Shown here: piece by piece, positions 14,101-44,343 of the stretch
How positions within the stretch are numbered: the stretch's first letter is position 1
Layout: the number at the start of each line of letters is the position of its first letter
Origin: Lachnospiraceae bacterium
GTDB lineage: Bacteria > Bacillota > Clostridia > Lachnospirales > Lachnospiraceae
Reading direction: 5' to 3'
Assembly (NCBI GenBank): GCA_022799355.1
Contig: JAAWOG010000019.1
Location: forward strand, 1 to 52,630
DNA: 52,630 nt
Made by a program: the position numbers and the translations under genes
The notes under the pieces: generated by a model
The model's input: the letters and a program-made list of their open reading frames with translations, nothing else
The model's database searches: none
Told to the model about the DNA's origin: nothing

Positions 14101-14991
14101 TTATTGCCTGTAAATCAAATCTTTCACTCTATGATACATCCCCGAAAACCTGCTGCTCTCCGCAATCCACCTCCGAAGCGGCGCAAGCGTCAGCAGCATG
14201 ATACCCTTATATCTCCAAATCTCACCGCACTTCATATATCTTCTGAGCACAAGTTCATGCTCTGCTTTATCTGTCTCCTGATTTTCCCTACTCTCAGAAA
14301 TACCGCCGCCCTCATAATCCGCTACCACAAAATCCATATATTGGAATTTTGCATTCCCCTGGTAAAAACACCAGAGGAAATGATCGTAATCCGCCCGAAT
14401 CTTCAAATTGATATCATATTTTTTATCCTGAAACAGTCTTCTGTCATAAAAGCAGGACTGATGGCACGGAATATTGCGAAAACAGGTAAACCCGGTAATC
14501 TCCGGCTCGGAGTGCACCATAGCGCCCGTCCGCATACAGTAAGTATTACCGTAATATATGACAGGTACATCTCCTGCACAATATCCCTTATCGTTTTCCT
14601 CTTCTGTCTGCTTCGCTGCCTTTGTGACCTTTGTGCTTTCCACCTTTATCTTTCGGTTTGTCTCCTCTGCAACGGCAGTAAGTACCCCCCGGTCATGAAA
14701 GCGATCCCCGCAGTTCAGAAATAAAATATATTCCCCCCGGCAAACCTCCAGCGCCTGGTTCATACCATCATAGACATTCTGATCTTCTTTTAAAATCAGT
14801 TTTAATCTCTGTTCCTCAATCGCCCGCTTTACCGCCTCTTCCCGCTTCAGATTCTCTATCGATCCATCCTTAGAACCGCCATCCTTCACTATAATCTCAA
14901 ACCCCTGAAAATCCTGCTCCAATATACTGTTTATCGTAAAAATGAGCTTTTCTCCAGGATTAAAGCTTGTTGTTATGATGGAAAATTTCAT
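14101..14991 (-). CDS. Family 2 glycosyltransferase (WcaE-like)
   Basis: 296 residues with a GT-A fold. The N-terminus MKFSIITTSFNPGEKLIFTI and the block IIVKDGGSKDGSIENL are typical of the GT2 subgroup that includes colanic-acid WcaE and related fucosyl/glucosyltransferases. The metal-binding region reads GEYILFLNCGDRFHD rather than the usual DxD, and this NCGD/NSGD form is normal for that subgroup. C-terminal aromatic and basic residues (RADYDHFLWCFYQGN) belong to the acceptor side. The gene starts inside the stop of the upstream frameshifted gene (ATGA overlap), which shows it belongs to the same transcript. Enzyme class is secure; the donor sugar is not. Confidence 0.85.
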   Translation of the reverse strand: MKFSIITTSFNPGEKLIFTINSILEQDFQGFEIIVKDGGSKDGSIENLKREEAVKRAIEEQRLKLILKEDQNVYDGMNQALEVCRGEYILFLNCGDRFHDRGVLTAVAEETNRKIKVESTKVTKAAKQTEEENDKGYCAGDVPVIYYGNTYCMRTGAMVHSEPEITGFTCFRNIPCHQSCFYDRRLFQDKKYDINLKIRADYDHFLWCFYQGNAKFQYMDFVVADYEGGGISESRENQETDKAEHELVLRRYMKCGEIWRYKGIMLLTLAPLRRWIAESSRFSGMYHRVKDLIYRQ

Positions 14992-25861: not shown

Positions 25862-27508
25862 ATGTCCGACTATGCCAAATTATTGTCCAAATATCTTTTT
25901 CTTCCTATGACGGTCATTTTTCTGATCGTCCTGTTTTATTACCATCATACGGAATCCGGCCAGATTTTATCTACCGATATCCTCTCTTCCGAGAAAGCGG
26001 AAGAACTTCTTATTACCGCTCCCCCCGAACTTGGTTTACTGGCAGGACAGGGGATTACCTTATTGTTTAACGGCTATCCGCTTCCCTATGATTCGGAAAG
26101 CGGTGCTTACTTCCTGTCCCAGAATATGAATACTGATGAATGGCAGGGCGCCCTCTCTTTAAGTGCTCCCGAAGGAGAACTTTATTTTCTGGAGGATGCT
26201 TTTCTTTACGATAAATCCGCCGCGATCAGCAGCGGACACATATTTTCTTTATATGCACAGGTTGGAGGCTCCTCCCAGCTTCTCTCCCTTGTTATCACAG
26301 GACTTCCTCTGGTCAGTCTGACTTCCGCCTATTCCGAACAGCCCGTTTACGATCCTGACCTGCAGCCCGACGAATACTATTACGATTCCCACACCATATA
26401 TTATGGGGCGGTTGTTATTTTTAATGCCAATCCGGAAAGCGGAAAATGCCAGACGGTTTTCAGCCCGGTCACGTTCCATGAACGCGGCGCAAGCTCCACC
26501 AAATATGGGAGGAAGAAAAACTATTCCATTAAGCTTCTGGAGGCGGACGGCACTAAAAACGAACAGTATCTTTTTGACCTCGGCACGCAGGCAAAATGGA
26601 AACTGATCACAATGTTTAATGACAGCAGTAAAATCCGGGATATGACATCCCTCACACTCTGGAGCGAAATCTCTTCTCAGGAAACAAATTTCATGGAGCA
26701 CAGTGCCGAAATGGCATATTGCGAAGTCATTTTAGACGGAAGATACAACGGTTTATGCGGTGTACTCACCCCGGTGGATGAAGATACGCTGCAATTAAAA
26801 GACGGTGATTCCCTTTATAAGCTGGTGGAGTTTGGCATGCCCTCCCCCGACAGCTTTCAGTATTCCGTTCAAAATAATTTTACCATAGCGTACCCTGTAA
26901 GGCTTCGTTATCCTAAAGAACCGGAAAAAATACTTCCCGGCTGGATTCCCATGCAGGAATACCTGACCTATGCCTACTGGACGCCAAACGCCTACGCTTA
27001 TGCCAGCCTTCTGGATCTGCGCAACATTGCCGATTTCTATATCTTCACCCAGGCAACCGCAGCCGCAGACAACAAATCCAAAAATACCTATATGGTATCC
27101 CGCCGTCAGCCGGACGGCAGGTATATTACCTATATCCTTCCCTGGGATCTGAACTATACCTTCGGCGAAGTCTGGGCACAGGAACCGGAGAAACTTTATG
27201 TTGCATTTAACGCGGATCCTACGATCATTTATGCGGAGCCCTGCATAGAACAGCTTTTTAACGAAAACATAAATGGCGCCCGGGACATTTTAAGAGCGCG
27301 CTATCTTACATACCGCGAAAATATATTATCCGAAGAACATATCATTTCCGTTATGGAGGAGAATATGAATCTTCTAGTACAAAGCGGTGCCCTTGCCAGA
27401 GATACCGCCATCTGCCCGGACAGCGGAAATACTACCGATCTCACCGCAACAAAACAGTTTGTTGTGGAACGGATGGCTTTTCTTGACAGCTATATTCTTG
27501 GACAATAA
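25862..27508 (+). CDS. CotH-family protein kinase, membrane-anchored
   Basis: 548 residues. An N-terminal membrane anchor (residues ~9-28, LFLPMTVIFLIVLFYYH) leads to an extracytoplasmic part. The kinase-like core starts near residue 200 with VTFHERGASSTKYGRKKNYSIKL, then KLITMFNDSSKIRDMTS and CEVILDGRYNGLCGV. These correspond to the CotH landmarks RG-x-S-x-KK, N-D and the G-x-Y-x-G-L block. A second cluster is DNKSKNTYMV followed by LPWDLNYTFG (427-436). Bacillus CotH phosphorylates serines of spore-coat proteins. In CotH proteins the last cluster usually reads W-D-x-D, whereas here the second Asp is Asn (N431), which could weaken metal binding. The gene follows the Spo0A-like gene and probably shares its promoter. 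Its location among glycan genes suggests a cell-envelope or spore-surface target, but none can be named. Confidence 0.85.
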   Translation: MSDYAKLLSKYLFLPMTVIFLIVLFYYHHTESGQILSTDILSSEKAEELLITAPPELGLLAGQGITLLFNGYPLPYDSESGAYFLSQNMNTDEWQGALSLSAPEGELYFLEDAFLYDKSAAISSGHIFSLYAQVGGSSQLLSLVITGLPLVSLTSAYSEQPVYDPDLQPDEYYYDSHTIYYGAVVIFNANPESGKCQTVFSPVTFHERGASSTKYGRKKNYSIKLLEADGTKNEQYLFDLGTQAKWKLITMFNDSSKIRDMTSLTLWSEISSQETNFMEHSAEMAYCEVILDGRYNGLCGVLTPVDEDTLQLKDGDSLYKLVEFGMPSPDSFQYSVQNNFTIAYPVRLRYPKEPEKILPGWIPMQEYLTYAYWTPNAYAYASLLDLRNIADFYIFTQATAAADNKSKNTYMVSRRQPDGRYITYILPWDLNYTFGEVWAQEPEKLYVAFNADPTIIYAEPCIEQLFNENINGARDILRARYLTYRENILSEEHIISVMEENMNLLVQSGALARDTAICPDSGNTTDLTATKQFVVERMAFLDSYILGQ

Positions 27509-30316: not shown

Positions 30317-31936
30317 TCACCCTTTATTTGCATCAGGACGCATATCATAGACGACAAGCCTCTCACAAATACCAACCGCTCTGCCCCCTGCCGCTCTGCA
30401 CCGCTTTTCAAATTCCCCTCCCGGAATCACTCCAATATAGCGGCTCTGCAGTTCCTCCAGGTTAACATCCATATACCCCCCGTCACAAAGATTGATTCCG
30501 AATCCCTTTGGCATAGCATAATACGCCCCGAAATCAACCATCTTCGTCTCCCCGCCGATACTGTCCCAGGCCGTCCATATGACAGTATTGTCATAATTAG
30601 GGGCATCCTTAGAAAGCTCCATATTCTCCGAAAGCTGTTTTGCCATATCTTCCAGATCCGCTCTGTGTTCTCCGCTTCCAAAAGGCAGCGAAAATTCATA
30701 GGGAATATTGCCTCTCCCCAAAAACAAAACCAGAAAAACCATAGCCATCCCCGCTGGGACAAGCAATTTACTTCTCCGGTACACTCCCTCTGTCAAAGGC
30801 AGTAAAAACAAACACCCTACAATGTAAACCAGCGTATGCCGCCCGCCCTCCTGCAGCCGATACATCAAAAGATCCGCCGCAAAAAATCCCGCCATGCAGA
30901 GCAGCATCTGTCCCTCCGGCAAAAAGTTCTCCCATCTTTTGTATCGGATTCTGACAATCATCTTTATCATCAGATACAAAAACAGCAGCAGAAAAATAAA
31001 ATAATACAGTCCCGCCGCGGAAATCAGCCCGCTTTTGACCGTCAGATTTTCCCATATCATATCAGCCACCGAAATCAGTGAAGTATACAGCTTCCAGACC
31101 GTATAGCGCACACCCGCCAAAATTCCCTGCTCAAAATAGACAGTGATCCATTCCGTATAAAAAAGGTCCGTCAGATACGGCGCACTGAAAAAATGATTGA
31201 TCATTCCATAGACAATAACCGTAACAGCCGCTATCCCGCCCGCAGAAAAAAAAGCCTTTTTTCCTTTCCGGTAAAACAGCAGCGCTCCCGGCGTCAATAT
31301 CAGCAATATCAGATAAGGACGCATCCATGTCATCAGCATAACAAGCCCAAACATACTGCTGATCTTCCAGCCTCCGTATCCCTTTCTGCAGCTCATCGCA
31401 AGCCCCAGAAATACGATAAACAGCGCAAACAATTCCGCCTCCGGTATACAGGAAAGCGCAAACCGCGTCACCGGTACAAAAGCCCCATATGAAACACCGA
31501 TCAGCAGGCTCTGCCTCCGGTCGGGCTTTGCAAGCACGCCGAAAAGCAGCATCGCACAGGAGAGCAGCGCAAGATTACAGAGCATCGGAGATAACAGGTT
31601 CCACCCAAAGAAAACTCCCCAGATAACCCAAAACAGCAAAAGCACCGGGCTCCACGCCGCAAAGGAAAGGTACATCCCATGGCTTTCATTAAACCCGAAA
31701 TACCCCTGAGGATAACCGTATGCGAGCACATTCTCAGTCAGTTTATAATAAAATAATTCATCATTCCAGGGGGACGCAGGCAGATACAATTCAGAAAATC
31801 CCTGTCCCTGCATCAGGCAGTACAGCCAGGCGGAAATCCAGGGTACCAGCGCAAGAAAGAGCGCAGCAGCAGCCACGCTCTTTTTTTCCTTATTTAAATA
31901 AGAGAATTTCCTGATCTTTTCCAATCCCTGCCTCAC
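30317..31936 (-). CDS. GT-C-like polytopic membrane glycosyltransferase (paralog B2)
   Basis: 539 residues with about ten to twelve membrane spans. The first outer loop reads YLPASPWNDELFYYKLTENV, then GYPQGYFGFNESHGMYLSFAAWSP. The Asn-Asp-Glu triad and the following aromatic Gly-rich stretch match paralog B1 at 27542-29170. The C-terminal ~130 residues are soluble, ending with ERLVVYDMRP, and correspond to VYRK/YIV in B1. It begins inside the stop of the fkp gene (ATGA overlap at 31933-31936), so fkp and this gene are translationally coupled. That coupling is the best evidence that the sugar it handles derives from Fkp, although the substrate has not been shown. The family resembles the surface-glycan GT-C proteins of Firmicutes, which lack experimental assignment. 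Confidence 0.7.
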   Translation of the reverse strand: MRQGLEKIRKFSYLNKEKKSVAAAALFLALVPWISAWLYCLMQGQGFSELYLPASPWNDELFYYKLTENVLAYGYPQGYFGFNESHGMYLSFAAWSPVLLLFWVIWGVFFGWNLLSPMLCNLALLSCAMLLFGVLAKPDRRQSLLIGVSYGAFVPVTRFALSCIPEAELFALFIVFLGLAMSCRKGYGGWKISSMFGLVMLMTWMRPYLILLILTPGALLFYRKGKKAFFSAGGIAAVTVIVYGMINHFFSAPYLTDLFYTEWITVYFEQGILAGVRYTVWKLYTSLISVADMIWENLTVKSGLISAAGLYYFIFLLLFLYLMIKMIVRIRYKRWENFLPEGQMLLCMAGFFAADLLMYRLQEGGRHTLVYIVGCLFLLPLTEGVYRRSKLLVPAGMAMVFLVLFLGRGNIPYEFSLPFGSGEHRADLEDMAKQLSENMELSKDAPNYDNTVIWTAWDSIGGETKMVDFGAYYAMPKGFGINLCDGGYMDVNLEELQSRYIGVIPGGEFEKRCRAAGGRAVGICERLVVYDMRPDANKG

Positions 31937-34900
31937 ACAAACTCACTCTCCCAGACATCCACTCCGTTATCCTGAAACACCTCGTGAAGTCTCTCCGAAA
32001 GCTGCCTTTTTGTCACACCCTTCTTCAGGATAGCCTGCAGAAAACCACCGCCGCCTGCACCCGCAATAAATCTCCCGTCGATCAGATCCTCACAGGATAA
32101 GAATATCTGATCGATACAGGTGTTTGTCGCACCCATATCCAACTGCTTTGACAGTTCCCAATGCTCATTGAACAGCTCTGCCAGTTCATCGATATCGCCC
32201 TCTTCCAGCGCCCAGCGCATCCTGACAGCCGTTACTTTCATGGCGGCTAACGCCTCCACCGACTCTTTCCGTCCGCCGATATAATTTCCCACAACTTCTC
32301 TAAGCAGATTTCTTGCCAGTCTCCTCTGTCCGGTATAGATCAGCGCAAACCGCTCCTGCAGTTCCTTTTTCGCATCCTCCGGCACGGCGATCTGCTCCAC
32401 CTGAATCCTCTGATCAATTCCGGATTTTGTCGTAATATATTTTATACCGTTCGTCAGACCGCCCACCTGATCCTGCCAGCCTCCACCGGTACTCATCATC
32501 TGTTCCATACAGAGTACAATATCATAGAGAGCGCCTTCACTGCAGGAAAGCCCCAGAAACTCATGGAGCGCTTTCACGCAGGCACCTGACAGAATACTGC
32601 TGGTTCCCAGCCCTGAGCCCTTCGGCACCCCCACTACCTTTGTGGAAAGATAAATACCGCCGCCCAGTCTTTTCAAAATCTCCTCCAGCGTTTCCGTCCC
32701 TGCCAGGGGCACGATCCCGCAGGAGATCAGCGCCGCCTTATGCAAAGCAAAGAAGTCAAAAGGATTATGACAATCCCGGATCTCCTCTGCTGTCCTGCAA
32801 ATACCCTCAGCACCGATGTCCTCACTGGCAAACTCCACATGCAGCGCATCCAGCCGCCGCACTTCCACCTGAATCGGCAAAATACCGTTCAGCTTCAGCG
32901 CCGCATTCAGCACCACGCCGCCGTTCTCATTGCAGTAGGGCGGCGTATCCGTCCAGCCGCCGCCCCAGTTTACCCGCACCGGAAGCCCTACTTTCACATT
33001 TTTATTCACGATATGAAAATTTTTATTGTCCTGAATATATTTTCTGCTGTTATCATAAACAGCCTTTCCGAGACTGTCAAAACAAAGCCTCTCCAGCACA
33101 TCATACCCCACATCCCCGGCAAAAACAATATTTCTCTCCCGCATATACCTGGAAAGGGCATAATAGATCCGCATCTTCAGCAAAAGTCCGCTCCCTTTCG
33201 CCTTTTCCATCAACAGATCAAACTTCTTCTGATCGATTCCCACCTGCCCGAACACCTGCAATGCCCTGTCGTAAGAGCCTCCCTGTTCCAATATCTCCAT
33301 AAACCGCGCCGCCAGCACCAGATCCTCCAACCTGGTCTTCCAGGGCAGCACCGCCTTTACATCCGCCTTCGCAAAAGACTCATAGAGGCTGCAGCGCTCC
33401 ATGGAAAGCCATCCTCCCACTGCCGGAGAAGGCTCCTTATTTTCCGATATCTTCACAAGCTGCAGGGAAGCCCTGAGAGCCTCTTCCATACTCTCACAGA
33501 CAGGATAAAGCTTCGCAAACCAGAGATAATGCTCCTGATCCCCCCAGATCTGTTCCGGTTTGATCCCATAATAAGAAACCATATCTCCAAGCCTTCCATA
33601 GATATACGCCGCATTTTCCTCCAGCGTCCCTTTCGGATTATCCTCCACGCCATAAATCCTGACAGTATACCTGCCATCCTGCAACCGAAGCCCATGGAGC
33701 ACTACCCCGGGCGGAATCCGTCCCTTCTTAAGGCAAAGCCCCGACAGGATACTTCCCTCCCCGGTACTTACCCCTTCTCCGATATCACAATCTTCCAGAT
33801 AACAGCCCTCTCCGATATCAGCGCCTTTCGCTATCAGGCTGTTATGTGCCGCATAGCGCCTCTCATCCGGCCTGTTCGTACACACCTGCCTTTTCCAGTG
33901 CAGATATTTGTAATCCTCCACGCTCTCCGTCACCAGTTCGAGCAACTCTCTCGTAGTACCAAAATGAATAAATTCCGCGGGAGAGAGGCAGATCACCTTC
34001 ATCCGAAACTTATGGAGCACTTCCCATATTTTTGTTCTGCACGTTTTCAGTTCTTCACAAAAGCTTCCCTCCGGCGCCTGCAGGTAATATTCCTCCAATG
34101 TGGCGTCTTTTGCCAGCGGATAAAGAAAATCTCCGTAAAAACTGATCCTTGCCCTGTCGTTGACAAACATGTCAAATTTTTCAGGATCTGTTTTAATGCC
34201 ATCTCCGATCAGAGAAAACAGTGCCCGCAGCAGCTCCGTATCCAGCATCACCGCACCGGTATCAAGATCCACCATCCCCTGTTCATTTACAGCCCCCAAA
34301 GCCCTCAGCTGCTCTTCCGACTGCTTATGCAGAAACCGTTTCACCATTCCCTGTCCGTCATTCAAAAATACGCCGTGTTCTTTTCCGGTCGATATGGGTT
34401 CCTTGATCGAGATCGCCGCAGCCCCCCGATACTGCAGATCAATCTGCAGTACATTAAACAAAAGCAATACGTCACCGCTCATCACCAGCATACCGCTCTG
34501 CATCCTCGCAGGAATTCCCGCCGTCGCTATCATAAACTCATCAAACAACGTCGAGGCGCGCCCGTTCGGCAGCTCCCTCGGCACAGGCGAAAACAGCTTT
34601 CCGCAGACACTGTACTGGGGAACCCTCTTGGAATCCCCACCGGAATGAATTACCAGAACCTTTTTCCCGAAGGCTTCCCTGCCGCCTTCTTTCTCCTCCA
34701 GATATTTCAGGACATTCAGCGTAGCACCGCCGGAACCTACACGCTTACCCTCCGGATCAGAGAGCACCACATATCTTGTCTTCGCCGGCAGGAGCGCGTT
34801 CAGCAGTCGGTATTCGATCTCTTTTCTATAGGCGGAAGCCTGGTCTTCATTGGACGCCGTCAGAACAACCACATCCCAGCATGGAAAGGACCGCTTTCTG

Positions 34901-34983
34901 AGCGCCCTCCTGTAATCCTCCCAGGCGTCAAGGTAGCTTTGTTGTAAAAACAGGGGTTTAATTTTGTTGTAGCTTATGTTCAT
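31933..34983 (-). CDS. fkp: Bifunctional L-fucokinase / GDP-L-fucose pyrophosphorylase (Fkp-like)
   Basis: 1016 residues, near the ~950 of Bacteroides Fkp. The N-terminal half carries the fucose-1-phosphate guanylyltransferase landmarks GSGGATLNVLKYL (83-95) and HSGGDSKRVPQYSVCGK (113-129). A left-handed beta-helix-like middle part follows (SLIAKGADIGEGCYLED). The C-terminal GHMP kinase has PVRVNWGGGWTDTPPYC (about 668) and the ATP loop VPKGSGLGTSSILSGAC (about 787). The two activities convert free L-fucose plus ATP and GTP to GDP-L-fucose. This salvage route is classically described from Bacteroides and plants, so finding it in a Gram-positive-type locus points to use of host-derived fucose on a surface polymer. 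The ATG has GGAGA about six bases upstream. Its own extended -10 promoter may lie near 35030. It is coupled to a GT-C-like gene. The related heptose kinases lack the N-terminal domain. Confidence 0.9.
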   Translation of the reverse strand: MNISYNKIKPLFLQQSYLDAWEDYRRALRKRSFPCWDVVVLTASNEDQASAYRKEIEYRLLNALLPAKTRYVVLSDPEGKRVGSGGATLNVLKYLEEKEGGREAFGKKVLVIHSGGDSKRVPQYSVCGKLFSPVPRELPNGRASTLFDEFMIATAGIPARMQSGMLVMSGDVLLLFNVLQIDLQYRGAAAISIKEPISTGKEHGVFLNDGQGMVKRFLHKQSEEQLRALGAVNEQGMVDLDTGAVMLDTELLRALFSLIGDGIKTDPEKFDMFVNDRARISFYGDFLYPLAKDATLEEYYLQAPEGSFCEELKTCRTKIWEVLHKFRMKVICLSPAEFIHFGTTRELLELVTESVEDYKYLHWKRQVCTNRPDERRYAAHNSLIAKGADIGEGCYLEDCDIGEGVSTGEGSILSGLCLKKGRIPPGVVLHGLRLQDGRYTVRIYGVEDNPKGTLEENAAYIYGRLGDMVSYYGIKPEQIWGDQEHYLWFAKLYPVCESMEEALRASLQLVKISENKEPSPAVGGWLSMERCSLYESFAKADVKAVLPWKTRLEDLVLAARFMEILEQGGSYDRALQVFGQVGIDQKKFDLLMEKAKGSGLLLKMRIYYALSRYMRERNIVFAGDVGYDVLERLCFDSLGKAVYDNSRKYIQDNKNFHIVNKNVKVGLPVRVNWGGGWTDTPPYCNENGGVVLNAALKLNGILPIQVEVRRLDALHVEFASEDIGAEGICRTAEEIRDCHNPFDFFALHKAALISCGIVPLAGTETLEEILKRLGGGIYLSTKVVGVPKGSGLGTSSILSGACVKALHEFLGLSCSEGALYDIVLCMEQMMSTGGGWQDQVGGLTNGIKYITTKSGIDQRIQVEQIAVPEDAKKELQERFALIYTGQRRLARNLLREVVGNYIGGRKESVEALAAMKVTAVRMRWALEEGDIDELAELFNEHWELSKQLDMGATNTCIDQIFLSCEDLIDGRFIAGAGGGGFLQAILKKGVTKRQLSERLHEVFQDNGVDVWESEFV

Positions 34984-35094: not shown

Positions 35095-35961
35095 TCAGCC
35101 TTTATACTGTAACATATACTCCGCAATCGCATCCTGCCAGGGCGCAAAACGAAAGTCCGTAGTCAGTCTCAGCATATAATTATCCAGAATAGAATACGCC
35201 GGGCGCTTTGTCGGCGATCCAAACTCTTCGGTCGTAATATAATTAACCTTTGTATCCTTCCCAGCCAGCCGAAAAATCTCCGCCGCAAAATCCGCCCAGC
35301 TGCAGCTCCCCTCGCAGGTGCCATGGAACAGCCCGTAATTTTCCGTCGGCAGAAGATATTTTACAGCCTTTGCCAATTCCATTGCACTGGTAGGCGTTCC
35401 ATATTGATCTTTTACAACTCCTACTTCTTTATGACTCTCAGCCAGCCTCAACATCGTCTTCACAAAATTTTTGCCATCCCCGTACAGCCATGCCGTTCTG
35501 ACAATAAAGTACTTATCACCGAAATCCCTGACAAAATTTTCCCCCGCCAGTTTTGTCTTTCCGTACATACTCGTAGCCCCTACGGCGTCAAACTCTGTCA
35601 ACGCCCTGTTTTCCGTCCCGGGAAATACATAGTCCGTGGAGACATGCATCAGCTTTGCACCGATTTCTGTTGCCGCGATACTCAGATTTCGAGGGCCGAT
35701 GGCATTGATCTTATAGGCATTATCGATATCCGTCTCGCATTTATCCACATTGGTATGCGCTGCGCAATTGATAATGGCATCCGGTTTTGTCTCTCTTACA
35801 AAAGAAAGTACCATATCCACATCCGTGATGTCCAGAGAGGTTATATTCTCTCCCTGAAAGACGTCCGTATTTATAACAGTAACGCCCTGTTCCTTTTCGT
35901 ATAACCGGTTTAACGCTCTGCCGAGCTGCCCGTTGCAGCCGGTGATCATGATTTTCTTCAT
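35095..35961 (-). CDS. rmlD: dTDP-4-dehydrorhamnose reductase
   Basis: 288 residues, the usual RmlD length. The Rossmann start is IMITGCNGQLGRAL (residues 4-17). The conserved block INCAAHTNVDKCE is followed by the catalytic HVSTDYVFPGTE and YGKTKLAGENFV, with Tyr and Lys of the SDR active site. TAWLYGDGKNFVKTML and VVKDQYGTPTSA complete the match. It performs the last step of dTDP-L-rhamnose synthesis, reducing dTDP-4-keto-L-rhamnose with NAD(P)H. rmlA, rmlB and rmlC are not in the window, so the rest of the pathway must lie elsewhere. GGAGAAG precedes the ATG. The gene stands alone between fkp and the YidC-sulfatase fusion, with 105-130 bp on either side. Confidence 0.95.
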   Translation of the reverse strand: MKKIMITGCNGQLGRALNRLYEKEQGVTVINTDVFQGENITSLDITDVDMVLSFVRETKPDAIINCAAHTNVDKCETDIDNAYKINAIGPRNLSIAATEIGAKLMHVSTDYVFPGTENRALTEFDAVGATSMYGKTKLAGENFVRDFGDKYFIVRTAWLYGDGKNFVKTMLRLAESHKEVGVVKDQYGTPTSAMELAKAVKYLLPTENYGLFHGTCEGSCSWADFAAEIFRLAGKDTKVNYITTEEFGSPTKRPAYSILDNYMLRLTTDFRFAPWQDAIAEYMLQYKG

Positions 35962-36066: not shown

Positions 36067-38826
36067 TTACTCTTCCATAATCGGAAAAATCACCTCATCT
36101 TCTGATACCAGTTTCCAATTATCCACATCCCGCATATCATCATGTACCGAGTACCACTTAGCGGGAAGATATACCGTTCCATTATTTTTTTCCACATCCA
36201 ACTCCTTTGAGAAGATAACATACTGATCATGTGCCGTTTTTTCCGAATTATCTATCGCTTTCCCCGTAAAGGGATTCACCGGATTTTTTATGATATCTTT
36301 CATTGCAAGTGTCGGAACATCCCCATTTGTCATAAACTCTTCTGATGTTTCAAATGTTTTGTCATTAAAATCTTTTACCATCAGCAACGGATAATAAGAC
36401 AGGATATCGCTTTCCCCCAACCGATGCTCATCTTCTTCAAATAGCGTACCCCTGCCATGATCCGCAACAATAATAATCCTTGTATTATCATAGACAGCAT
36501 TCTCCCGCATATAATCAAACCATTTCCCCAATTGCAAAAGCGCCGCCATATTTGCCTGATAAGTTGTCAATTGTATATCCATTTCCATTCTCAATGTACG
36601 TCCGTTAACTGTATATCTTTCCTGATGGCTACTTTCATATTCCGTATTATCCACCTCCATAGCCGGTACATACTCAGGTTCCTGAAGCAGCATGGGATCA
36701 TGGGTTGTACCATTAGCCATCATCAAAAAAGTGTTGATATTCTCATCAACAGCATCTGTAATAGTCGGAAGTGCCGCCAAGACATTGTAATTATTCATAA
36801 AAGTTGCTTCCAGCCCAATCGATCGAAACATGCCCTGGCCTATTTGTTTTGTGTCAAGTGATATCCCGCTTTCCGCCTGATTATACTTGCCATAGTCATA
36901 TACTGTTTTCTGAATACAAAGCGGTACTGTTTTTAAAATACTATAGCAAAAAAAATTTCTATGATTATTCTCTATTGTCTGCCCGTTACCATAATCCTCC
37001 GAAAATTTTCCATCAAGTACATAACTTTGAATATCGGGATACTCATCATAAATTGATAAGTCCGGTATCACCTTATAACCCGCATAAGGTGGATCACAAA
37101 CTGTCACCCGGTAATCATTTTGGGCAAACAATACCGGCATTACCTTTAACGCTTCGTTATGTTTGGTAACCAGCAGTTCCTCATCCCTTTTGTTCATCTC
37201 TACTGGAGTATATTCATACCCACCAAAAAGAGCCGGCGCACCAAAATTCGTATATCCCCCGAATGAAATTGTATTTGCATAGTAAGTAAAACCTGTAAAC
37301 TGTTTCTCCAATTCAGGTTTTTCCTGGAAAAAGTATGGTATATATTCCCCCAACGCCCGGTCAAGCATAATAACAATTACATTTCTACCCGTCCTGCTCA
37401 TTGTAAATCTGGGTGTCGTAATATAAGCTTCCAGATTCCGTTCTTTCACGCTGTTTATAGCCCTATTAATCGTCACAACATTGACTGTACTCATACAGAG
37501 AAGCGCCAGGATACCAACTATCAGTACATCCTTTATATGTTTACGCCAATATCTATATACTACATAACCCCCCCATACCAAAACTGCTACTATTACTGCA
37601 TTCCCAGCCTGCTCCTTCCATGTAAATCCAAATTCTTTCTCGTATTCCAACTGAGAACTGATCAATCCCATATCCCTTCCAAAGAACATATAATCCACTA
37701 CAAAAATTCCGGAAAGGTACCATATTCCCCTGTCAAAGTATATTCTTAATTCAGGCTTTGCCAAAAAGTAAAATACGCCTGTCCAAATCACAAAAATCCC
37801 CAGTGCCAGGCAAAATGAACTCACAACAAACCACAGCGGATTATAAAATTCAGTTATTACAATAAAATCCAATGGTGCCGCCTTAATCACTGACGAGGGA
37901 ATTAAAACGCCTGTCAATAAAGACAAAAACAGCCCTCCTGCCAAAAACAGCTTCCTCTCTCCTCTCTCGCATTTTTCTATCTTCTTTATTCTTTCTTTTA
38001 CATTAATGCTGATCAGAGGAATCTGCATCAGCACTGACATAATCATAAAAAATATTTTTTTCCTCAATGTAGGTGATGGGTATAAGAAAAAACCATAAAA
38101 TATCAGCAAAATACCAATAATTGAAAAGGAGATACTGACAACTCTGCCCGGATTCTTCAGCTTATAAAAAATTGTCTTTGCCAATGAAAATACATTATTC
38201 AATGTCCAATAAAAAACCAACCCGGCAGGAGATGAATATAAAAATACCAGAAAAAAGAGCGCCATCACATACAGCTGAACCTTCGCTTTCAATGGACTCC
38301 CTTTCGTAAAAATTACACAAGATATCAAATTTACAACCGTCATAATAACCGGTAGCACATTAACAGAGATTCCGGCCACCTGTAATATTCCATCCGGCAT
38401 ACCCAAATCCGGTATTGGTCCAAACGAAACTCCGCTTAAAAGTTGTAACCCGGAAAGAAATCGATAAGCAGCAATAAAAAACGGAATCTGTAAAAGCAGC
38501 GAAACCGCACTGCGCAGTACATAAACAGGCTTATAGTTGTTTTGCCTGTAATAAGTCTGCAACATCATCATCCGCTCATCACCGCTGAATGTCTTTTTAA
38601 TATGCTCCGCACCTTTTTGGAGCTTTCTTTCTAATGCATGCTCTTCTTCCTGTATTTTATCAGCACGCATATATAATGGCAGCACCAGAAAATTCATAAA
38701 CAGGCTCAGTACAATAATCGATACTCCCGGATTCCCGATCACTTTATCCGCCATTACATAGATAACTTCAAACAACAAATACAATGGCTTTAAAAATAAC
38801 GTATCCAAAATTTCCCAAAAAGACAT
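36067..38826 (-). CDS. YidC/Oxa1-like domain fused to an alkaline-phosphatase/sulfatase-superfamily (LTA-synthase-like) domain
   Basis: 919 residues with an uncommon two-part build. Residues ~1-225 match the YidC/Oxa1 core: NPGVSIIVLSLFMNFLVLPL, the coiled hairpin ADKIQEEEHALERKLQKGAE, SAVSLLLQIPFFIAAYRFLS and SSPAGLVFYWTLNNVFS. The conserved groove arginine (R366 of E. coli YidC, five residues before the Pro) is Asn45 here. About eight further spans lie between residues 230 and 450. Residues ~481-850 form an outer sulfatase-superfamily domain: NVIVIMLDRALGEY with metal Asp489, candidate nucleophile Thr526 in GGYTNFGAPALFGG, ANGTTHDP and VADHGRG with Asp789 and His790. The latter class transfers glycerol phosphate or phosphoethanolamine or cleaves sulfate/phosphate esters. 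The gene follows a CDP-glycerol glycerophosphotransferase-like gene by one base, which suggests a teichoic-acid-like polymer. Whether the YidC part inserts proteins or only scaffolds is open. Confidence 0.85.
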   Translation of the reverse strand: MSFWEILDTLFLKPLYLLFEVIYVMADKVIGNPGVSIIVLSLFMNFLVLPLYMRADKIQEEEHALERKLQKGAEHIKKTFSGDERMMMLQTYYRQNNYKPVYVLRSAVSLLLQIPFFIAAYRFLSGLQLLSGVSFGPIPDLGMPDGILQVAGISVNVLPVIMTVVNLISCVIFTKGSPLKAKVQLYVMALFFLVFLYSSPAGLVFYWTLNNVFSLAKTIFYKLKNPGRVVSISFSIIGILLIFYGFFLYPSPTLRKKIFFMIMSVLMQIPLISINVKERIKKIEKCERGERKLFLAGGLFLSLLTGVLIPSSVIKAAPLDFIVITEFYNPLWFVVSSFCLALGIFVIWTGVFYFLAKPELRIYFDRGIWYLSGIFVVDYMFFGRDMGLISSQLEYEKEFGFTWKEQAGNAVIVAVLVWGGYVVYRYWRKHIKDVLIVGILALLCMSTVNVVTINRAINSVKERNLEAYITTPRFTMSRTGRNVIVIMLDRALGEYIPYFFQEKPELEKQFTGFTYYANTISFGGYTNFGAPALFGGYEYTPVEMNKRDEELLVTKHNEALKVMPVLFAQNDYRVTVCDPPYAGYKVIPDLSIYDEYPDIQSYVLDGKFSEDYGNGQTIENNHRNFFCYSILKTVPLCIQKTVYDYGKYNQAESGISLDTKQIGQGMFRSIGLEATFMNNYNVLAALPTITDAVDENINTFLMMANGTTHDPMLLQEPEYVPAMEVDNTEYESSHQERYTVNGRTLRMEMDIQLTTYQANMAALLQLGKWFDYMRENAVYDNTRIIIVADHGRGTLFEEDEHRLGESDILSYYPLLMVKDFNDKTFETSEEFMTNGDVPTLAMKDIIKNPVNPFTGKAIDNSEKTAHDQYVIFSKELDVEKNNGTVYLPAKWYSVHDDMRDVDNWKLVSEDEVIFPIMEE

Positions 38827-38827
38827 C

Positions 38828-40075
38828 CTATTTTCCCCCCGCTGCCCGTTTTAAACCTTCATATTTATTCAATAGATAATCCACTGCCCGTTGCGTACCT
38901 TCACCCATATATTCCCAGGTTTCCTCTCGGGCTTCCTGCCGTCCCTTTGCATACTTCGGATCCTGAATACACTCATCTATTATTTGTTTTAAATCGCCAA
39001 AATTATCCAACGTCAGTTTCTGCCCGATACGAGGGAGCGCCGTAAAAGTCCAATACGGCGTGTCCAGCCACCATGCATCATAAGGACTATTATCAAACTC
39101 CGTATCCGCATAGATAACAGGTTTGTCATATACTAGTGAAAAGTCAAAAATTATGCCGGAAAAATCGGAAATTAGAATATCTGCACGTCTCAGTACTTCA
39201 AAATTGTCATTTTCCCTATTCCATTCAAGTTGATCGGATGCCGGATATTCCTTCATAATTTTTTCTATTGTTTCCTTTTCAGAAGTAAAAGACTGCGGAT
39301 GCGGACGTACAATGACATGATATCCGGTCTTTAAGAGAACCTCAATAATTTTTCCGCCGTACCTCTGAAATATAGAGCTTTTTCCCCATGACGGAGCGAG
39401 CAAAACATTATACCCTTCCGCCCCCTTTATCCCTTCAGCCTCCTGAAGCCTCTTTGCCATCTCATCCATATAAGGAATACCTATTTTAACCAGATCCTTG
39501 GCCGGAAGCCCTCTTAATTTCTCAAGATCCCTGACTTCCTGTACCTGATATTCCCCCGAGAGCAGTACCGCATCAAAATAATCCACCCCAAACATTCGAT
39601 AACCTGAAATATCATTCGCCGCATGCTGCATATGCACATAATATTGTACATCCTTGGACCGCTTCCACTGATACACGTCAAGCCCGGGAGTCGTGGAAAG
39701 CACTATCCCCGCATTCAAAAAATTCATCTTCGCAAAAGCCTTATTGTTCTTTCCGATAAACTCTCCCTTAATGTGTTTGTAGGGATTCTGAATCGCAGGA
39801 TCATCCGGGGACGCTGTCATATAGACCATATCTACCCCCCGTCTGTCAAATTCCCGGCAGATCGGTTCAAATACATTCCAGTATCTTTTATCATCCGAAA
39901 AAATCACAAATGGCAGTTTATCCGCATTCGTCTCTACCTTTTTTCCGCTGCTCATCACAAATCTCAGTTTTACAATCCAGTTCTTCAGCAGATAATTCAA
40001 TGTCCCGATAATTCCGATAAGTATTGCAAAAAGCATACTTCCTGTTCCCGGATCGATATATAATAATATATTCAT
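38828..40075 (-). CDS. CDP-glycerol glycerophosphotransferase-like protein (TagB/TagF family)
   Basis: 415 residues. A single N-terminal membrane segment (DPGTGSMLFAILIGIIGTLN) is followed by a GT-B-like domain: FVIFSDDKRYWNVFEPICREF, STTPGLDVYQWKRSK, MQHAANDISGYRMFGVDYFD, LLAPSWGKSSIF, VIVRPHPQSF, and DILISDFSGIIFDFSLV with KPVIYAD. The PHP and SDxSxxxxDF blocks are the hallmark of the Glyphos_transf family (PF04464), which adds glycerol phosphate (or ribitol phosphate) from CDP-activated donors to wall-polymer intermediates. Length and the membrane anchor place it nearer TagB-like than the longer TagF-like polymerases. It heads a two-gene unit with the YidC-sulfatase fusion and has a promoter at 40132-40160. 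A GGGGGAAAG ribosome site precedes the ATG. Which polyol it uses is not known. Confidence 0.9.
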   Translation of the reverse strand: MNILLYIDPGTGSMLFAILIGIIGTLNYLLKNWIVKLRFVMSSGKKVETNADKLPFVIFSDDKRYWNVFEPICREFDRRGVDMVYMTASPDDPAIQNPYKHIKGEFIGKNNKAFAKMNFLNAGIVLSTTPGLDVYQWKRSKDVQYYVHMQHAANDISGYRMFGVDYFDAVLLSGEYQVQEVRDLEKLRGLPAKDLVKIGIPYMDEMAKRLQEAEGIKGAEGYNVLLAPSWGKSSIFQRYGGKIIEVLLKTGYHVIVRPHPQSFTSEKETIEKIMKEYPASDQLEWNRENDNFEVLRRADILISDFSGIIFDFSLVYDKPVIYADTEFDNSPYDAWWLDTPYWTFTALPRIGQKLTLDNFGDLKQIIDECIQDPKYAKGRQEAREETWEYMGEGTQRAVDYLLNKYEGLKRAAGGK

Positions 40076-40183: not shown

Positions 40184-41782
40184 TTAAATGTCCAAATTCA
40201 GGTACATCTTTACATCTTTCATAAAGCTTACAACAATTAGTACAATCACAATCCCTATCGGGAAAGCCGCAATAATACTGACTGACTGCAGATTATTCAT
40301 GGAGCTTTCCGAAAAAACAAGCGCAACCGGTAACAAGATCAGCAAAATGCACCACATAAACTCCACAAGCTTATGAGGATTCTCATTCTCTCCCAGCTTA
40401 TGATAGCTGTAACAAGAGCCAATCAGCGCAATAGAATCGAAAGAAGTTGCATAAAAAGCTATCATTGTAAAAAGTAGAAGCACCAACACAAAAGAAGCAC
40501 AGGGCAATGTACGTATAATCGCAATAATCGTATCATACAGGTCTCCGTCCCTCTCATATATGGCAAGAAAATCCGCTGCTCCTGTTATCTGTTTTCCCAG
40601 AGAATAATTACCCAATATAATAAAGCTGATGACCGTGGAGCCAGTCCCAAACAGATAACCACCGAAAATGACCTGCCGTATAGTACGCCCCCTGGAAATG
40701 CTGCCGATAAAAAACGGAGCGGCAACACACCAAACCATCCAGTACGCCCAGTAAAAGATCGTCCAATTTTGAGGAAAAGATGTTGTTCTCTCCGGATCTG
40801 TAAATGTTGCCAGTTCAAAAAAATTCTGCATCATTCTTCCCAACGCTGCATACCCGGTTTCTAAAATATACTTTGTCTCCCCTCCAAACAATAATACAAA
40901 AATAAGTAATCCGAAAAACAAGTAAATGCAAGACTTTGCCAGAAAGCTAATCCCACCAAAACCATGCAGCAACGCATATGTATAAATAATGCAGGTTAAA
41001 AGCAGAATAACGATTGTCACAACGGTACGGTTCAGTTCCACATGACAAATTTCATTTATAATTTCAGCCATGAGCGGCGTTGCCAGAGAAAAAGTTGTTG
41101 CAGTACCCGCCAGTAATGCAAATACCGCCAGAAGATCTATAATACGCCCGGGTATGCCATCGGTATATTTTCCAAGGATAGGACGACAGGCCTCCGAATA
41201 CTTTTGTCTCTCACGCCTTCTTACATGAAGCATAAAGCCGAACGCCACAGCCAGTACCAGATAAAATCCCCATGGGATCAGACTCCAATGAAAAATCGGA
41301 AATACACTCGCCCAATCCTGAATACTGCCCAATTCCGTTATGTGCGGATCAGACGCATATAATATCCATTCCGAAAAAGAATAAAACAAAATGTCCGCCG
41401 CCAGACCTGCCGTAAACATCATAGAACCCCAGACAAAAAATGTATATTTTGGTTTTTCTCTCTTCCCCCCAAGCACAACATTTCCATACCGTGAAGCCGC
41501 AATAAAAATAGAAAACAAAAATATTCCCAATCCTATTAACAGATAGTATGCACCAAAAACATCCCCGAGCACATAACGAATCTGCTCAAGTACCTTATTA
41601 GACTGCTCCGGTATATAAAAAAACATAATACATAATATGACAATAATAATAAACGGCACCAGAGTAATCATCCAGTCAACCTTTTTATTTCCATCAGTTC
41701 CTACAGGCCTTTTCATCTTTACATCTATTCCTTTCACTTTACTCATGTACAAAACGTTATAGACATGTTTTCCCAGACTCAT
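40184..41782 (-). CDS. BCCT-family transporter, probably choline uptake
   Basis: 532 residues with twelve predicted spans. The BCCT signature lies near residue 350: WTIFYWAYWMVWCVAAPFF followed by GSISRGRTIRQV, with the Trp-rich substrate box. The segment ASRYGNVVLGGKREKPKY near residue 100 is also typical. Such carriers bring in choline, betaine or carnitine with Na+ or H+. Located beside LicC- and LicA-like genes, choline is the likely cargo, replacing the LicB-type permease of the classical lic1 locus. The longest frame starts at 41782. Weak ribosome sites leave starts at 41746 or 41716 (MKRPVGTDGNKK) possible, the latter with AAAGGAA about 12 bases upstream. It is 41 bases downstream of licC on the same strand. 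Confidence 0.85.
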   Translation of the reverse strand: MSLGKHVYNVLYMSKVKGIDVKMKRPVGTDGNKKVDWMITLVPFIIIVILCIMFFYIPEQSNKVLEQIRYVLGDVFGAYYLLIGLGIFLFSIFIAASRYGNVVLGGKREKPKYTFFVWGSMMFTAGLAADILFYSFSEWILYASDPHITELGSIQDWASVFPIFHWSLIPWGFYLVLAVAFGFMLHVRRRERQKYSEACRPILGKYTDGIPGRIIDLLAVFALLAGTATTFSLATPLMAEIINEICHVELNRTVVTIVILLLTCIIYTYALLHGFGGISFLAKSCIYLFFGLLIFVLLFGGETKYILETGYAALGRMMQNFFELATFTDPERTTSFPQNWTIFYWAYWMVWCVAAPFFIGSISRGRTIRQVIFGGYLFGTGSTVISFIILGNYSLGKQITGAADFLAIYERDGDLYDTIIAIIRTLPCASFVLVLLLFTMIAFYATSFDSIALIGSCYSYHKLGENENPHKLVEFMWCILLILLPVALVFSESSMNNLQSVSIIAAFPIGIVIVLIVVSFMKDVKMYLNLDI

Positions 41783-41823: not shown

Positions 41824-42534
41824 TCATAAAAAACGCTCATAATATTTGTCTATTACAGCAAGTTCCTTTATATCATCTATTTCTACGACATCTCCTGTCT
41901 TCATTTCACAGATCCCAAGCCGATACGCTTCGGGATAACAAAATAACGCAATATCATCCCAATATATCTGCGTATTCTTCCTTTCCTCAAATTCTGTTTC
42001 TATATGCTCTTTCAGCCTCTCTCCATCTTCAACTGTCCATCTTGAAATGCTGTAAAGCTGCCAGCCTCCTTTTCCACCTTCTTTATTGCAATGAGTGACC
42101 ATCCCATTTTTCTCGGTAAGCATCCACTCCTTTGTCTCGCGCTCCATCCATACACAATTATAACCGGAAAGTTTAAATGTCTTTTTCAATACATTTTCAT
42201 TATAAATCATCTGATCCGCATCCAGAATGATCGCTCCTCCAATAAAATCCCTCGCCATATATAATGATGAAATATTATTGCATTTGTCATAAAAAGGATT
42301 TTCAATCAATACAACGCCAGGATATTCCCTTTTAAGGTCAAAAAACTTCTCTTTCATATACCCAACCACAACATATATTTTATATATTCCATTAGCATGT
42401 AATCCCCTGATTACGGTATCGATCATTCTGACTCCATTTACCTTAATCAACGGTTTTGGTGTCTCCAATGAAAGCGGCCGCATTCGCTTTCCCTGACCTG
42501 CCGCCACAATAATGGCATGCGTTACCTCATGCAT
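41824..42534 (-). CDS. licC: Choline-phosphate cytidylyltransferase (LicC-like)
   Basis: About 236 residues with a nucleotidyltransferase fold. The N-terminal signature is AIIVAAGQGKRMRPLSLETP with KPLIKVNG following. IYVVVGYMKEKFFDL and NPFYDKCNNISSLYMARDFI come next, and the metal-binding AIILDADQMI. The NNISSLY stretch and the closing IDDIKELAVIDKYY are typical of LicC from pneumococcus and its relatives, which make CDP-choline from phosphocholine and CTP. The ATG at 42534 is chosen because GGAGG lies about eight bases upstream. The longest frame would begin 13 codons earlier inside the upstream gene. The start overlaps the stop of the LicA-type gene by eight bases, so translation is coupled. 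A second LicC-like domain sits in that upstream protein, so this one may act on a different alcohol phosphate. Confidence 0.85.
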   Translation of the reverse strand: MHEVTHAIIVAAGQGKRMRPLSLETPKPLIKVNGVRMIDTVIRGLHANGIYKIYVVVGYMKEKFFDLKREYPGVVLIENPFYDKCNNISSLYMARDFIGGAIILDADQMIYNENVLKKTFKLSGYNCVWMERETKEWMLTEKNGMVTHCNKEGGKGGWQLYSISRWTVEDGERLKEHIETEFEERKNTQIYWDDIALFCYPEAYRLGICEMKTGDVVEIDDIKELAVIDKYYERFL

Positions 42535-44305
42535 GTTTTTTATCCTCCATTCTTTCCAATTCCTTTCGGACAATACGATAATACTCTTTTGCGTAGCGAT
42601 ACTGTCTCAATGAATATTCACCGAACTCCACACCAAGCTCTCTTTTGTATTCACACCAGTTACTCCAAAGCAGACCGCAAGCTGCAATATAACAATAAAT
42701 CTTAATCCGAATCATCCTCTCACATCCTTCTTTAAAATACAAATTTATCAAATGATCCACCTGCTCCTTATCATAAAAAGAATAAATGCAGAACATGGCT
42801 ATGTCTATATGTGGATCTTGCATTCCCGCATATTCCCAGTCTATCATTCTGATATCTTCTTCTCCCCTCTCATCTGTCATGAACAAAAAATTATCAGGAA
42901 CCGCATCTATATGAGCCAATGTCTTTCTATCAATGTGTTGTTCCGTAAACGCTTTCAAAGAAAAAATATTTTCTCTTGTCTGTATATAATCTTTATAAAA
43001 AGAAGCTTCCTTTCTCCAAAGGCTCTCATAAAATTCTATTTGCCTCCAAATATCAAATTCATGTGCGACATAAAAATTACACTCATGAAATTCCCGCAGT
43101 TTTTTCATACATTTTCTAATATCACTTTCCAAAAAAGGATCACATACCCTTGCCCCCTCTATATATTCGGTAATCTTATATCCGTTATCTGCATTAATAT
43201 AAATAATATTATCGCAAATACCCTGTTTACTTATTTTTCCATATATCTCAACCTCCTCCTGCCGATTGATCAGGTTTTCCGTCCCTTCGCCGGGAATACG
43301 CATTATATATTTTTTCTCATGGCACACAAAAGAAAAAGAACGATTTGTCATTCCCTTTTTTAAAACGTTAATATTTATTATTTCATTCTCCTTTACTCTA
43401 AGAACTTTTGCAGCAATTGAAACGGCATCTGATTTCAACTGGCCGGAAGAACTATCCAGTTCCCGAAGCTGTTCATAAGTATTAATTTCTATAACTTCCG
43501 AATCCCTGACCATTTTAGGATACAGAATCATACAATAATTTTTATATAAAGCTTCTTCCCAATAAATACCATAATATTTTCTCTCTTTACTCAATTCAAT
43601 GATACGCTTTTTTATATCCGCCGCATCCTTCTCAAAAATATAGCTTATACCTATCATCTTGTTCCCAGCCACATCCTCCCGGGTTCTTACCAGTTCCATT
43701 TTCCGGTTAATCCTCACGTCACTCTCTTCCGTCAATACCTCACTGACCATATACCAGGAATAAAGTTCCCGCTCTCTGAACGGATTTTCCGCACACCACA
43801 GATCACATGGCAAAATATACGTATTAGAAATATACTCTGATGCAAGATATAAAGAATACAGATTATTTTTAGCAGTATATTCCGGATTTACAAGTAGTTT
43901 CACCCCAAACTCATCGATCAGATACTCAAAACTTTCCTTCATAAACCCTACAACAACATAAATCTCTTCAATCCCCACCTCATTGAGCTGCTTTATCAGC
44001 CTCTCAATCAGCCTCTCCCCTTTCACCTCCAGCAAAGCCTTCGGTGTTTCCATATTGATTGGCACCATTCTCATTCCAAAGCCTGCCGCAAGTATGATTG
44101 CATTTTGTGGACGGCTTTTTGCAAACAGTTTTTCTGCCTTGTCAGTTAAACGCACTTCCCCGTCAAGATAACCTGATTCAGACAGCTTTTTTATGCAGCG
44201 ATTGACAAGCCCCAATGAATACCCCGTCTTATTTGATAAACAGCGTTGGTTACTGTAATTTTCAAACGACAATGTAAGCAGAATATCGAGTTCTTGTTTG
44301 TTCAT
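42527..44305 (-). CDS. Winged-helix / nucleotidyltransferase / LicA-type choline kinase fusion
   Basis: About 592 residues in three parts. Residues ~1-60 are a winged-helix-like domain (ELDILLTLSFENYSNQR, then LVNRCIKKLSESGYLDG). Residues ~65-290 are a LicC-type nucleotidyltransferase (AIILAAGFGMRMVPINMETP, then NNLYSLYLASEYI). Residues ~300-590 are a choline/ethanolamine kinase of the LicA/APH type: catalytic loop LAHIDAVPDNFLF and metal site MIDWEYAGMQDPHIDIAMF. Choline kinase makes phosphocholine, which LicC-type enzymes activate to CDP-choline for transfer to wall polymers by LicD. The ATG at 44305 has AAAGGAG about eight bases upstream; a start at 44329 is less supported. It leads the operon with licC and the BCCT gene. 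No licD lies in this window. Whether the N-terminal helix-turn-helix binds DNA or is structural is not known. Confidence 0.85.
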   Translation of the reverse strand: MNKQELDILLTLSFENYSNQRCLSNKTGYSLGLVNRCIKKLSESGYLDGEVRLTDKAEKLFAKSRPQNAIILAAGFGMRMVPINMETPKALLEVKGERLIERLIKQLNEVGIEEIYVVVGFMKESFEYLIDEFGVKLLVNPEYTAKNNLYSLYLASEYISNTYILPCDLWCAENPFRERELYSWYMVSEVLTEESDVRINRKMELVRTREDVAGNKMIGISYIFEKDAADIKKRIIELSKERKYYGIYWEEALYKNYCMILYPKMVRDSEVIEINTYEQLRELDSSSGQLKSDAVSIAAKVLRVKENEIININVLKKGMTNRSFSFVCHEKKYIMRIPGEGTENLINRQEEVEIYGKISKQGICDNIIYINADNGYKITEYIEGARVCDPFLESDIRKCMKKLREFHECNFYVAHEFDIWRQIEFYESLWRKEASFYKDYIQTRENIFSLKAFTEQHIDRKTLAHIDAVPDNFLFMTDERGEEDIRMIDWEYAGMQDPHIDIAMFCIYSFYDKEQVDHLINLYFKEGCERMIRIKIYCYIAACGLLWSNWCEYKRELGVEFGEYSLRQYRYAKEYYRIVRKELERMEDKKHA

Positions 44306-44343
44306 ATAATTCTCCTTTTCCATTTTCATGAACGTTATATATC

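Follow-up and report, generated by a model that had tools for sequence, protein, structure and literature searches.

The fusion gene and its domains

The stretch of DNA analysed here (the window) is the 52,630 bp contig JAAWOG010000019.1 of assembly GCA_022799355.1, from a Lachnospiraceae bacterium. At positions 36067–38826 its minus strand carries a single unbroken reading frame of 919 amino acids (aa) that joins a YidC domain, a hairpin of two transmembrane (TM) helices, a 5-TM region and a predicted outer domain of the alkaline phosphatase superfamily; the plus strand across the same positions has many stops. An earlier annotation (the original prediction) had described this frame, without giving its strand, as a YidC core of about residues 1–225 followed by an outer alkaline phosphatase-superfamily domain with intact-looking catalytic residues, and both parts of that description are borne out. 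That the fusion is real, with a YidC core and an LtaS-like outer phosphotransferase domain in one open reading frame (ORF), is confirmed by family and profile matches and by its relatives; the gene is called FUS, or the fusion, below.

The YidC domain (residues 1–225, 38152–38826) matches PF02096 over residues 34–221 (84.1 bits, cut-off 35, E 1.4e-23) and is barely above the cut-off of TIGR03592 (84.5 bits against 84.3). A profile made from the N-terminal 225 residues in 14 sequences found YidC chains alone among solved structures at E 0.01, the best at E 2.5e-13, and aligned along solved YidC, as would fit a five-TM core with a cytoplasmic C1 region; in this alignment N45 (codon 38692–38694) occupies the position of the groove arginine, Arg366, of E. 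coli YidC. The 2-TM hairpin that follows (residues 226–290, 37957–38151, placed by alignment and hydropathy) is absent or largely absent from some relatives (L021, L025 and L028 in the alignment). The 5-TM region (residues 291–470, 37417–37956) is of the kind found in LtaS-like transferases, as judged from hydropathy on 92 sequences and from hhalign comparison with stand-alone transferases, and the remainder of the protein (residues 471–919, 36070–37416) is the phosphotransferase domain, whose predicted position outside the cell agrees with hydropathy over the 92 sequences and with the distribution of lysine and arginine.

Within the outer domain D489 (codon 37360–37362), the putative nucleophile T526 (37249–37251), H709 (36700–36702), D789 and H790 (36457–36462) and K818 (36373–36375) are identical in all 92 full-length fusion sequences, and the catalytic residues line up with invariant residues of 13 stand-alone LtaS-like relatives. 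As a single sequence the fusion is below threshold for the sulfatase family PF00884 (15.4 bits, cut-off 25), a cut-off passed by the two stand-alone LtaS-like relatives tested. A fusion profile matches the stand-alone LtaS-like proteins over TM region and domain (hhalign 99.7 %, E 1e-25), and among solved structures the profile of that stand-alone family finds LtaS best (E 4.2e-8); the fusion's own C-terminal profile finds a phosphonate monoester hydrolase and sulfatases best among solved structures and reaches LtaS at E 0.006. The mean frequency of the majority residue over the 92 sequences is 0.72 in the YidC part, 0.60 in the transferase domain and 0.48 in the 5-TM region; the YidC part is thus the most conserved region, which is not expected of a passive anchor.

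Distribution of the fusion

Searched with nothing but the C-terminal half, 84,980 species genomes gave at least 569 relatives. The best 80 of these hits, at 77 loci (L029–L105), were taken, so that the closest relatives are over-represented. The YidC part stands in the same frame in 115 of 120 related ORFs (the best scan hits together with relatives from whole-genome searches, after removal of the duplicates L030, L031, L057 and L116), which rules out an assembly error or the isolated chimera that the original prediction had named as a possibility against itself. The other five comprise three ORFs cut by contig ends, one N-truncated (L023, 597 aa) and one split gene in which the YidC ORF lies directly upstream of the transferase ORF (L067); complete ORFs with both parts number 106, the window's own counted in. 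Going by the names of their source organisms, the relatives come chiefly from Lachnospiraceae, Oscillospiraceae, Ruminococcaceae and unassigned Clostridia of gut and rumen; Schwartzia and Solobacterium are also represented, and loci L054 and L056 belong to the cultivable [Clostridium] aminophilum. Apparent in-frame TAG stops in three genes (on G012:C1, G233:C26 and G291:C32) are in fact the terminal stops of those genes.

Among 250 genomes of the window's family that are at least 90 % complete, 14 carry the fusion; of 299 genomes sampled evenly across the phylum two have it, that of the window and another from the same family. Each of the 14 fusion genomes among the 250 also has a separate housekeeping YidC, so the fused domain is distinct from it. 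We note that one housekeeping YidC match (G148:C21:43792–44625) was reported with an in-frame TAG, the ORF there being just 323 aa long, and that one subgroup of fusions (L062, L076, L084 and L105) adjoins genes for FtsX, a PcsB-like peptidase and a CtpB-like protease and not headgroup genes, an assignment made by Pfam for L062 and by gene clusters for the other three.

The PF04464 partner

The minus-strand gene at 38828–40075, here called P2, encodes a PF04464-family phosphotransferase of the cytidine diphosphate (CDP)-alcohol type (43.7 bits, cut-off 22.1) with an N-terminal membrane motif, YIDPGTG, that is kept in 32 of 32 sequences. Its TAG ends one base before the FUS ATG, the spacing originally reported. 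The arrangement recurs: P2 lies within 400 bp of the fusion in 72 of 93 loci (duplicates L018, L030, L031, L057 and L116 and the non-fusion loci L117–L119 removed), and the median gap in 64 adjacent pairs on the same strand is 1 nt, with 57 gaps between -30 and 60. At locus L067 (positions 1–20823) a single P2 is surrounded by an array of seven fusion genes, of which one is split and another runs off the contig.

In the 250 family genomes the fusion and a stand-alone P2 occur together in 13, the fusion alone in one, P2 alone in none and neither in 236 (Fisher p 8e-21), a co-occurrence that is partly preset, as the sequences behind the P2 profile were taken from beside fusions and its cut at E 1e-60 picks that subfamily. 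At this cut 14 genomes matched, the 13 fusion genomes and G302, whose match (E 4e-62) is to a protein of the swapped kind described below and was left out of the P2 count. In G012 P2 lies away from the fusion, and one copy is found within a phosphonate operon (L117).

A second, swapped architecture

In genome G030 a 551-aa LtaS-like gene is followed by one for a 634-aa protein in which a YidC domain is fused to a PF04464 domain, the reverse of the arrangement in the window. This YidC–PF04464 type was found in 13 of the 250 family genomes, at 16 loci, and residues 55–407 of P2 are related to its PF04464 part (E 4.5e-44). A separate outer transferase lies at 11 of the 16 loci (ten identified by phmmer and one by Pfam) and headgroup genes at 12, a 143-aa headgroup-gene fragment in L148 being left out of the latter count. 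The four YidC–PF04464 copies of genome G291 all differ in their headgroup neighbours: one adjoins a choline module, one a hydroxyethylphosphonate module, one a cytidylyltransferase-oxidoreductase set and one a nucleotidyltransferase set. One YidC–PF04464 protein is accompanied by five outer transferases in G171 and by seven in G214. The search of the phylum sample found no swapped protein among the 299 genomes at E 1e-40, which is a weak zero, as the query has no known match there.

The outer-transferase family is present in 11 of the 13 genomes with the swapped type and in none of 12 family genomes with neither type, a contrast that is partly circular in that the profile was built from transferases beside swapped genes; among the four genomes that did not contribute to the profile (G171, G220, G059 and G302) the family is present in two, against the same 0 of 12 controls. 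Locus L149 (6421–13313, on G030:C45) has a LicC-LicA-like fusion and, opposite it, a stand-alone LtaS-like transferase; a broken YidC–PF04464-like remnant of 41 residues is nearby.

Since YidC is fused to either the cytoplasmic or the outer enzyme, and the third part is usually near, YidC most simply sits between the two, and the three modules appear to share one pathway. The swapped fusion suggests that the YidC domain moves a lipid-linked donor between the enzymes, rather than only thinning the membrane.

Headgroup and glycan genes

The three genes upstream of P2 in the window, all on the minus strand, encode a BCCT-family choline/betaine transporter (40184–41782; PF02028, 407.7 bits), a LicC/PntC-like nucleotidyltransferase that is a candidate phosphocholine cytidylyltransferase (41824–42573; PF12804/PF00483) and a LicC-LicA-like fusion of helix-turn-helix, nucleotidyltransferase and choline kinase domains (42527–44329; PF01633, 65 bits, with PF12804 and PF13412). 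By family these constitute a CDP-choline pathway, so the headgroup handled in the window is probably phosphocholine rather than glycerol phosphate, and CDP-glycerol is disfavoured as the donor. The neighbour that the original prediction called CDP-glycerol transferase-like is P2.

Elsewhere, a gene for a headgroup activated with cytidine monophosphate (CMP) lies within 8 kb of the fusion in 40 of the 93 loci (23 choline, 7 phosphonate and 10 other), and in 26 of the 47 loci that have at least 5 kb on each flank; the queries of this search were drawn from the same loci (E 1e-4), and headgroup genes of other types would therefore escape it. Taken together, the neighbourhoods suggest CDP-choline or CMP-phosphonates as the donors of P2. 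The modules include LicC-LicA-LicB-like genes, a nucleotidyltransferase with an ABC importer and other cytidylyltransferases; beside some fusions they are an aminoethylphosphonate set (phosphoenolpyruvate (PEP) mutase-cytidylyltransferase, decarboxylase and transaminase) or a hydroxyethylphosphonate set (PEP mutase, decarboxylase and alcohol dehydrogenase). Headgroup genes stand at the fusion in 10 of the 14 fusion genomes (G301 being counted through its duplicate locus L056) and at the housekeeping YidC, in flanking stretches of 11–18 kb, in 0 of 14 (p 8e-5). In G273 there are two fusion–P2 pairs, one by a phosphonate operon and the other by choline genes, and over whole genomes PEP mutase is found in 11 of the 26 with either architecture as against 14 of the other 224 (p 3e-6).

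Several further observations concern these neighbourhoods. Directly upstream of P2 in L035 (3877–7542) is a subtilase plus GH25 protein with choline-binding repeats, as would suit a wall decorated with choline. A protein that combines a nucleotidyltransferase with a class I/II aminotransferase-like domain is found repeatedly next to both architectures (L024, L045, L090, L181, L182 and L186). In the window's own genome another contig (G000:C48) carries licD (8038–8697) and PEP mutase (14715–15560) genes within about 7 kb, and this organism may run a parallel LicD-type phosphonate system.

Downstream of FUS in the window begins a surface-glycan cluster, whose first gene encodes RmlD of dTDP-rhamnose synthesis (35095–35961, minus strand; above the TIGR01214 cut-off), followed by a fucokinase/fucose-1-phosphate guanylyltransferase-like protein (31933–34983, minus strand; PF07959, 333 bits). 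With dTDP-rhamnose genes, fucose genes and glycosyltransferases all present downstream, a surface polysaccharide made by this cluster would be the likely acceptor. A CotH-kinase-family protein is encoded on the opposite strand within the cluster (25862–27508, plus), and a 735-aa open frame antisense to the fucokinase-like gene (32740–34947, plus) is probably a by-product of codon usage.

The groove residue and the YidC groups

The original prediction took the asparagine at the groove position as a sign that the YidC part may have been repurposed. The position does align with E. coli Arg366, and the residue there is Asn in 90 and Ser in two of the 92 full-length fusions, none having a positive residue as in E. 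coli. The argument itself fails, as absence of the arginine does not set the fusion apart: of 12 housekeeping YidCs tested, five have Tyr at this site, four Lys, three Asn and none Arg, and eight of them have no positive residue. By type, the site is Asn in 15 of 15 fusions and Lys in 16 of 16 swapped proteins. In an unrooted tree of 43 YidC domains (those 15 fusion and 16 swapped domains with 12 of the 14 housekeeping YidCs, L122 and L131 not being picked) a branch separates each of the three types from the rest. As there are only these three groups and an outgroup is lacking, the tree says no more than this on a sister relation of the two fused YidC groups, and the program warns that long branches meet.

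A possible pathway and its alternatives

CMP-activated headgroups are made inside the cell, and superfamily transferases of the LtaS and EptA kind take headgroups from lipids outside, so something must carry the loaded lipid across the membrane. We consider it somewhat probable that the three modules decorate surface glycans with small, charged phospho- or phosphono-headgroups in the following way. At the cytoplasmic face P2 would move the headgroup phosphate or phosphonate from its CMP-activated form, which in the window would be the CDP-choline made by its neighbours, to a membrane lipid; the YidC-family domain, having given up protein insertion, would scramble the loaded lipid to the outer leaflet; and the LtaS-like outer domain would take the headgroup phosphate or phosphonate onto Thr526 and pass it to the surface glycan, with release of the lipid. 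Scrambling is proposed for the YidC domain on the strength of two precedents: purified E. coli YidC and other Oxa1-family proteins are reported to scramble lipids in vitro, by a simulated route that follows the insertion groove (PMC10491306), and MprF is described as a fusion of synthase and scramblase (PMC8131360, PMC11980842). The broader proposition, to which we give an even chance, is that at least two kinds of fusion have diverted a YidC/Oxa1-superfamily domain from protein insertion to dedicated lipid scrambling in a modular, headgroup-independent machine that would export CMP-activated choline, aminoethylphosphonate, hydroxyethylphosphonate and other headgroups as lipid-linked donors for outer-face transferases.

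Several findings weigh against this pathway. No headgroup gene was found within 8 kb in 53 of the 93 fusion loci, or in 21 of the 47 with full flanks, and five of the 16 swapped loci have no outer transferase in the stretch taken. One fusion genome, G235, is without P2, and the partial presetting of the P2 co-occurrence, given above, tells in the same direction. Choline kinase is a poor genome-wide marker, with a weak association only (11 of the 26 genomes with either architecture, 55 of the 224 others, p 0.048). The Asn of the fusion groove and the Lys of the swapped one may mean that the two YidC domains work differently. CMP-activated headgroups may also have other users, since LicD is encoded elsewhere in 10 of the 14 fusion genomes, and it was detected near the fusion in three of the 93 loci (L052, L090 and L114). 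We considered LicD as the missing transferase and rejected it: the neighbour search gave no LicD match in the window, the licD gene of that genome lying elsewhere, and four of the 14 fusion genomes have none, the three loci just named notwithstanding. Finally, the nearest solved relatives of P2 are the TagF-like Cps3D and TarL, which are of the polymer-making type, so that its acceptor could be a glycan.

This last point speaks for a different order of events, in which P2, still in the cytoplasm, would attach the headgroup straight to a glycolipid or lipid-linked glycan, as LicD and TagF/TarL do, YidC would help to flip or present the product, and the outer domain would attach or extend it. 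TagF/TarL-type enzymes use lipid-linked glycan acceptors. Threonine-type transferases of the superfamily (LtaS, EptA), on the other hand, use phospholipid donors, and the presence of several outer transferases per P2 (the seven fusions of L067) or per YidC–PF04464 protein suits a small donor shared among them better than a single finished glycan. In favour of the direct route, a LicD-type enzyme is reported to use CDP-choline for the in vitro transfer of phosphocholine onto a glycolipid (PMC11982090); on balance we think the route rather unlikely. Another reading makes the YidC domain an integral insertase or chaperone that helps the multi-TM transferase to fold, with no part in the chemistry. 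The domain does still pass the YidC family cut-offs, and yet all 14 fusion genomes already possess a housekeeping YidC, the swapped type carries its YidC on the PF04464 enzyme with the multi-TM transferase separate, and ordinary LtaS-like enzymes are not known to need a YidC domain, so we regard this as improbable.

The original prediction, which stood up as to the fusion, the catalytic residues and the PF04464 neighbour and failed in its arginine argument, had suggested for the YidC part no more than a thinning of the membrane or the presentation of a lipid-linked polymer to the outer domain. An insertase of the YidC superfamily is reported to thin the membrane (PMC10646013), and thinning and scrambling, being linked, may differ in degree; taken by itself the proposal leaves the fusion of YidC to a cytoplasmic enzyme in the swapped type unexplained, and we hold it to be very unlikely. 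Least credible of all is a hydrolytic role of the outer domain, in the removal of headgroups or the trimming of a polymer, for although the best solved matches of its profile are the phosphonate monoester hydrolase and sulfatases, the nucleophile position is threonine in 92 of 92 sequences and both TM region and domain match LtaS-like proteins.

Relation to known systems

Each component belongs to a known family and departs from it. The YidC domain passes the YidC/Oxa1 family models and aligns along solved YidC; it differs in being fused to a phosphotransferase (or a PF04464 enzyme), in being additional to the housekeeping YidC and in forming a separate group in the tree. With LtaS, EptA and PptA the fusion shares the threonine at the nucleophile position and the metal ligands and, as predicted from hydropathy and profile alignment, would share the 5-TM region before an outer domain; unlike them it has an N-terminal YidC domain, a dedicated PF04464 partner and a frequent linkage to CMP-headgroup genes. 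P2 resembles TagB, TagF, TarL and Cps3D in passing the PF04464 cut-off, and its DILISDFSG aligns with DLLITDYSS of Cps3D; it is distinguished as a single short enzyme with a YIDPGTG membrane motif that occurs in choline and phosphonate operons. The window shares a choline kinase, a choline-type transporter and a nucleotidyltransferase, by family match only, with the lic1 locus (LicA-LicB-LicC-LicD), and where that locus has LicD the window has P2 and the fusion.

The overall logic is analogous to that of three-component glycosylation systems of the GtrAB/CsbB type, in which a cytoplasmic donor-lipid synthase (GtrB type), a flippase (GtrA) and an outer GT-C transferase cooperate and one donor can serve several transferases. 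The analogy is one of logic only, as the parts here are PF04464, PF02096 and alkaline phosphatase-superfamily proteins and the cargo would be a headgroup phosphate or phosphonate, not a sugar. MprF likewise carries a flippase/scramblase domain on a lipid headgroup enzyme, as the swapped type would, but its families and chemistry are different and it has no outer transferase; Pfam and NCBIfam gave no match to the aminoacyl transferase/MprF flippase domain in the fusion or P2. Several fusion–P2 pairs adjoin PEP mutase, decarboxylase, transaminase and nucleotidyltransferase genes, as in the Pnt pathway, in which PntC makes CMP-aminoethylphosphonate (PMC6697681). That paper names LicD-like phosphotransferases in Pnt neighbourhoods, and its main text does not contain the words sulfatase, insertase or YidC.

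In the literature searched, no paper among the matches listed names either fusion in its title or abstract opening. The assembly as a whole, and the placing of YidC between a CMP-headgroup enzyme and an outer phosphotransferase, thus appear undescribed in that literature, although the component families are known. The logic is that of known lipid-donor surface modification; we see a real chance that this is a new class.

A survey of 26 species is reported to have found 'no evidence' that the CDP-choline (Lic-1) pathway and PptA-like transferases coexist, and describes the PptA donor as unidentified (PMC10434233); the system described here may join the Lic-1 route with PptA-like transferases of the alkaline phosphatase superfamily. 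It would also be a candidate user, besides LicD, of CMP-activated phosphonates in gut bacteria. The physiological relevance of insertase scrambling is stated not to have been demonstrable in cells, since scrambling is likely redundant and the proteins have other critical roles (PMC10491306). YidC domains that stand beside a housekeeping YidC and are fused to likely lipid-headgroup enzymes offer a place to test scrambling apart from insertion and, if the pathway is as proposed, they would represent a new class of surface decoration, in which lipid scrambling by the YidC fold has a physiological function.

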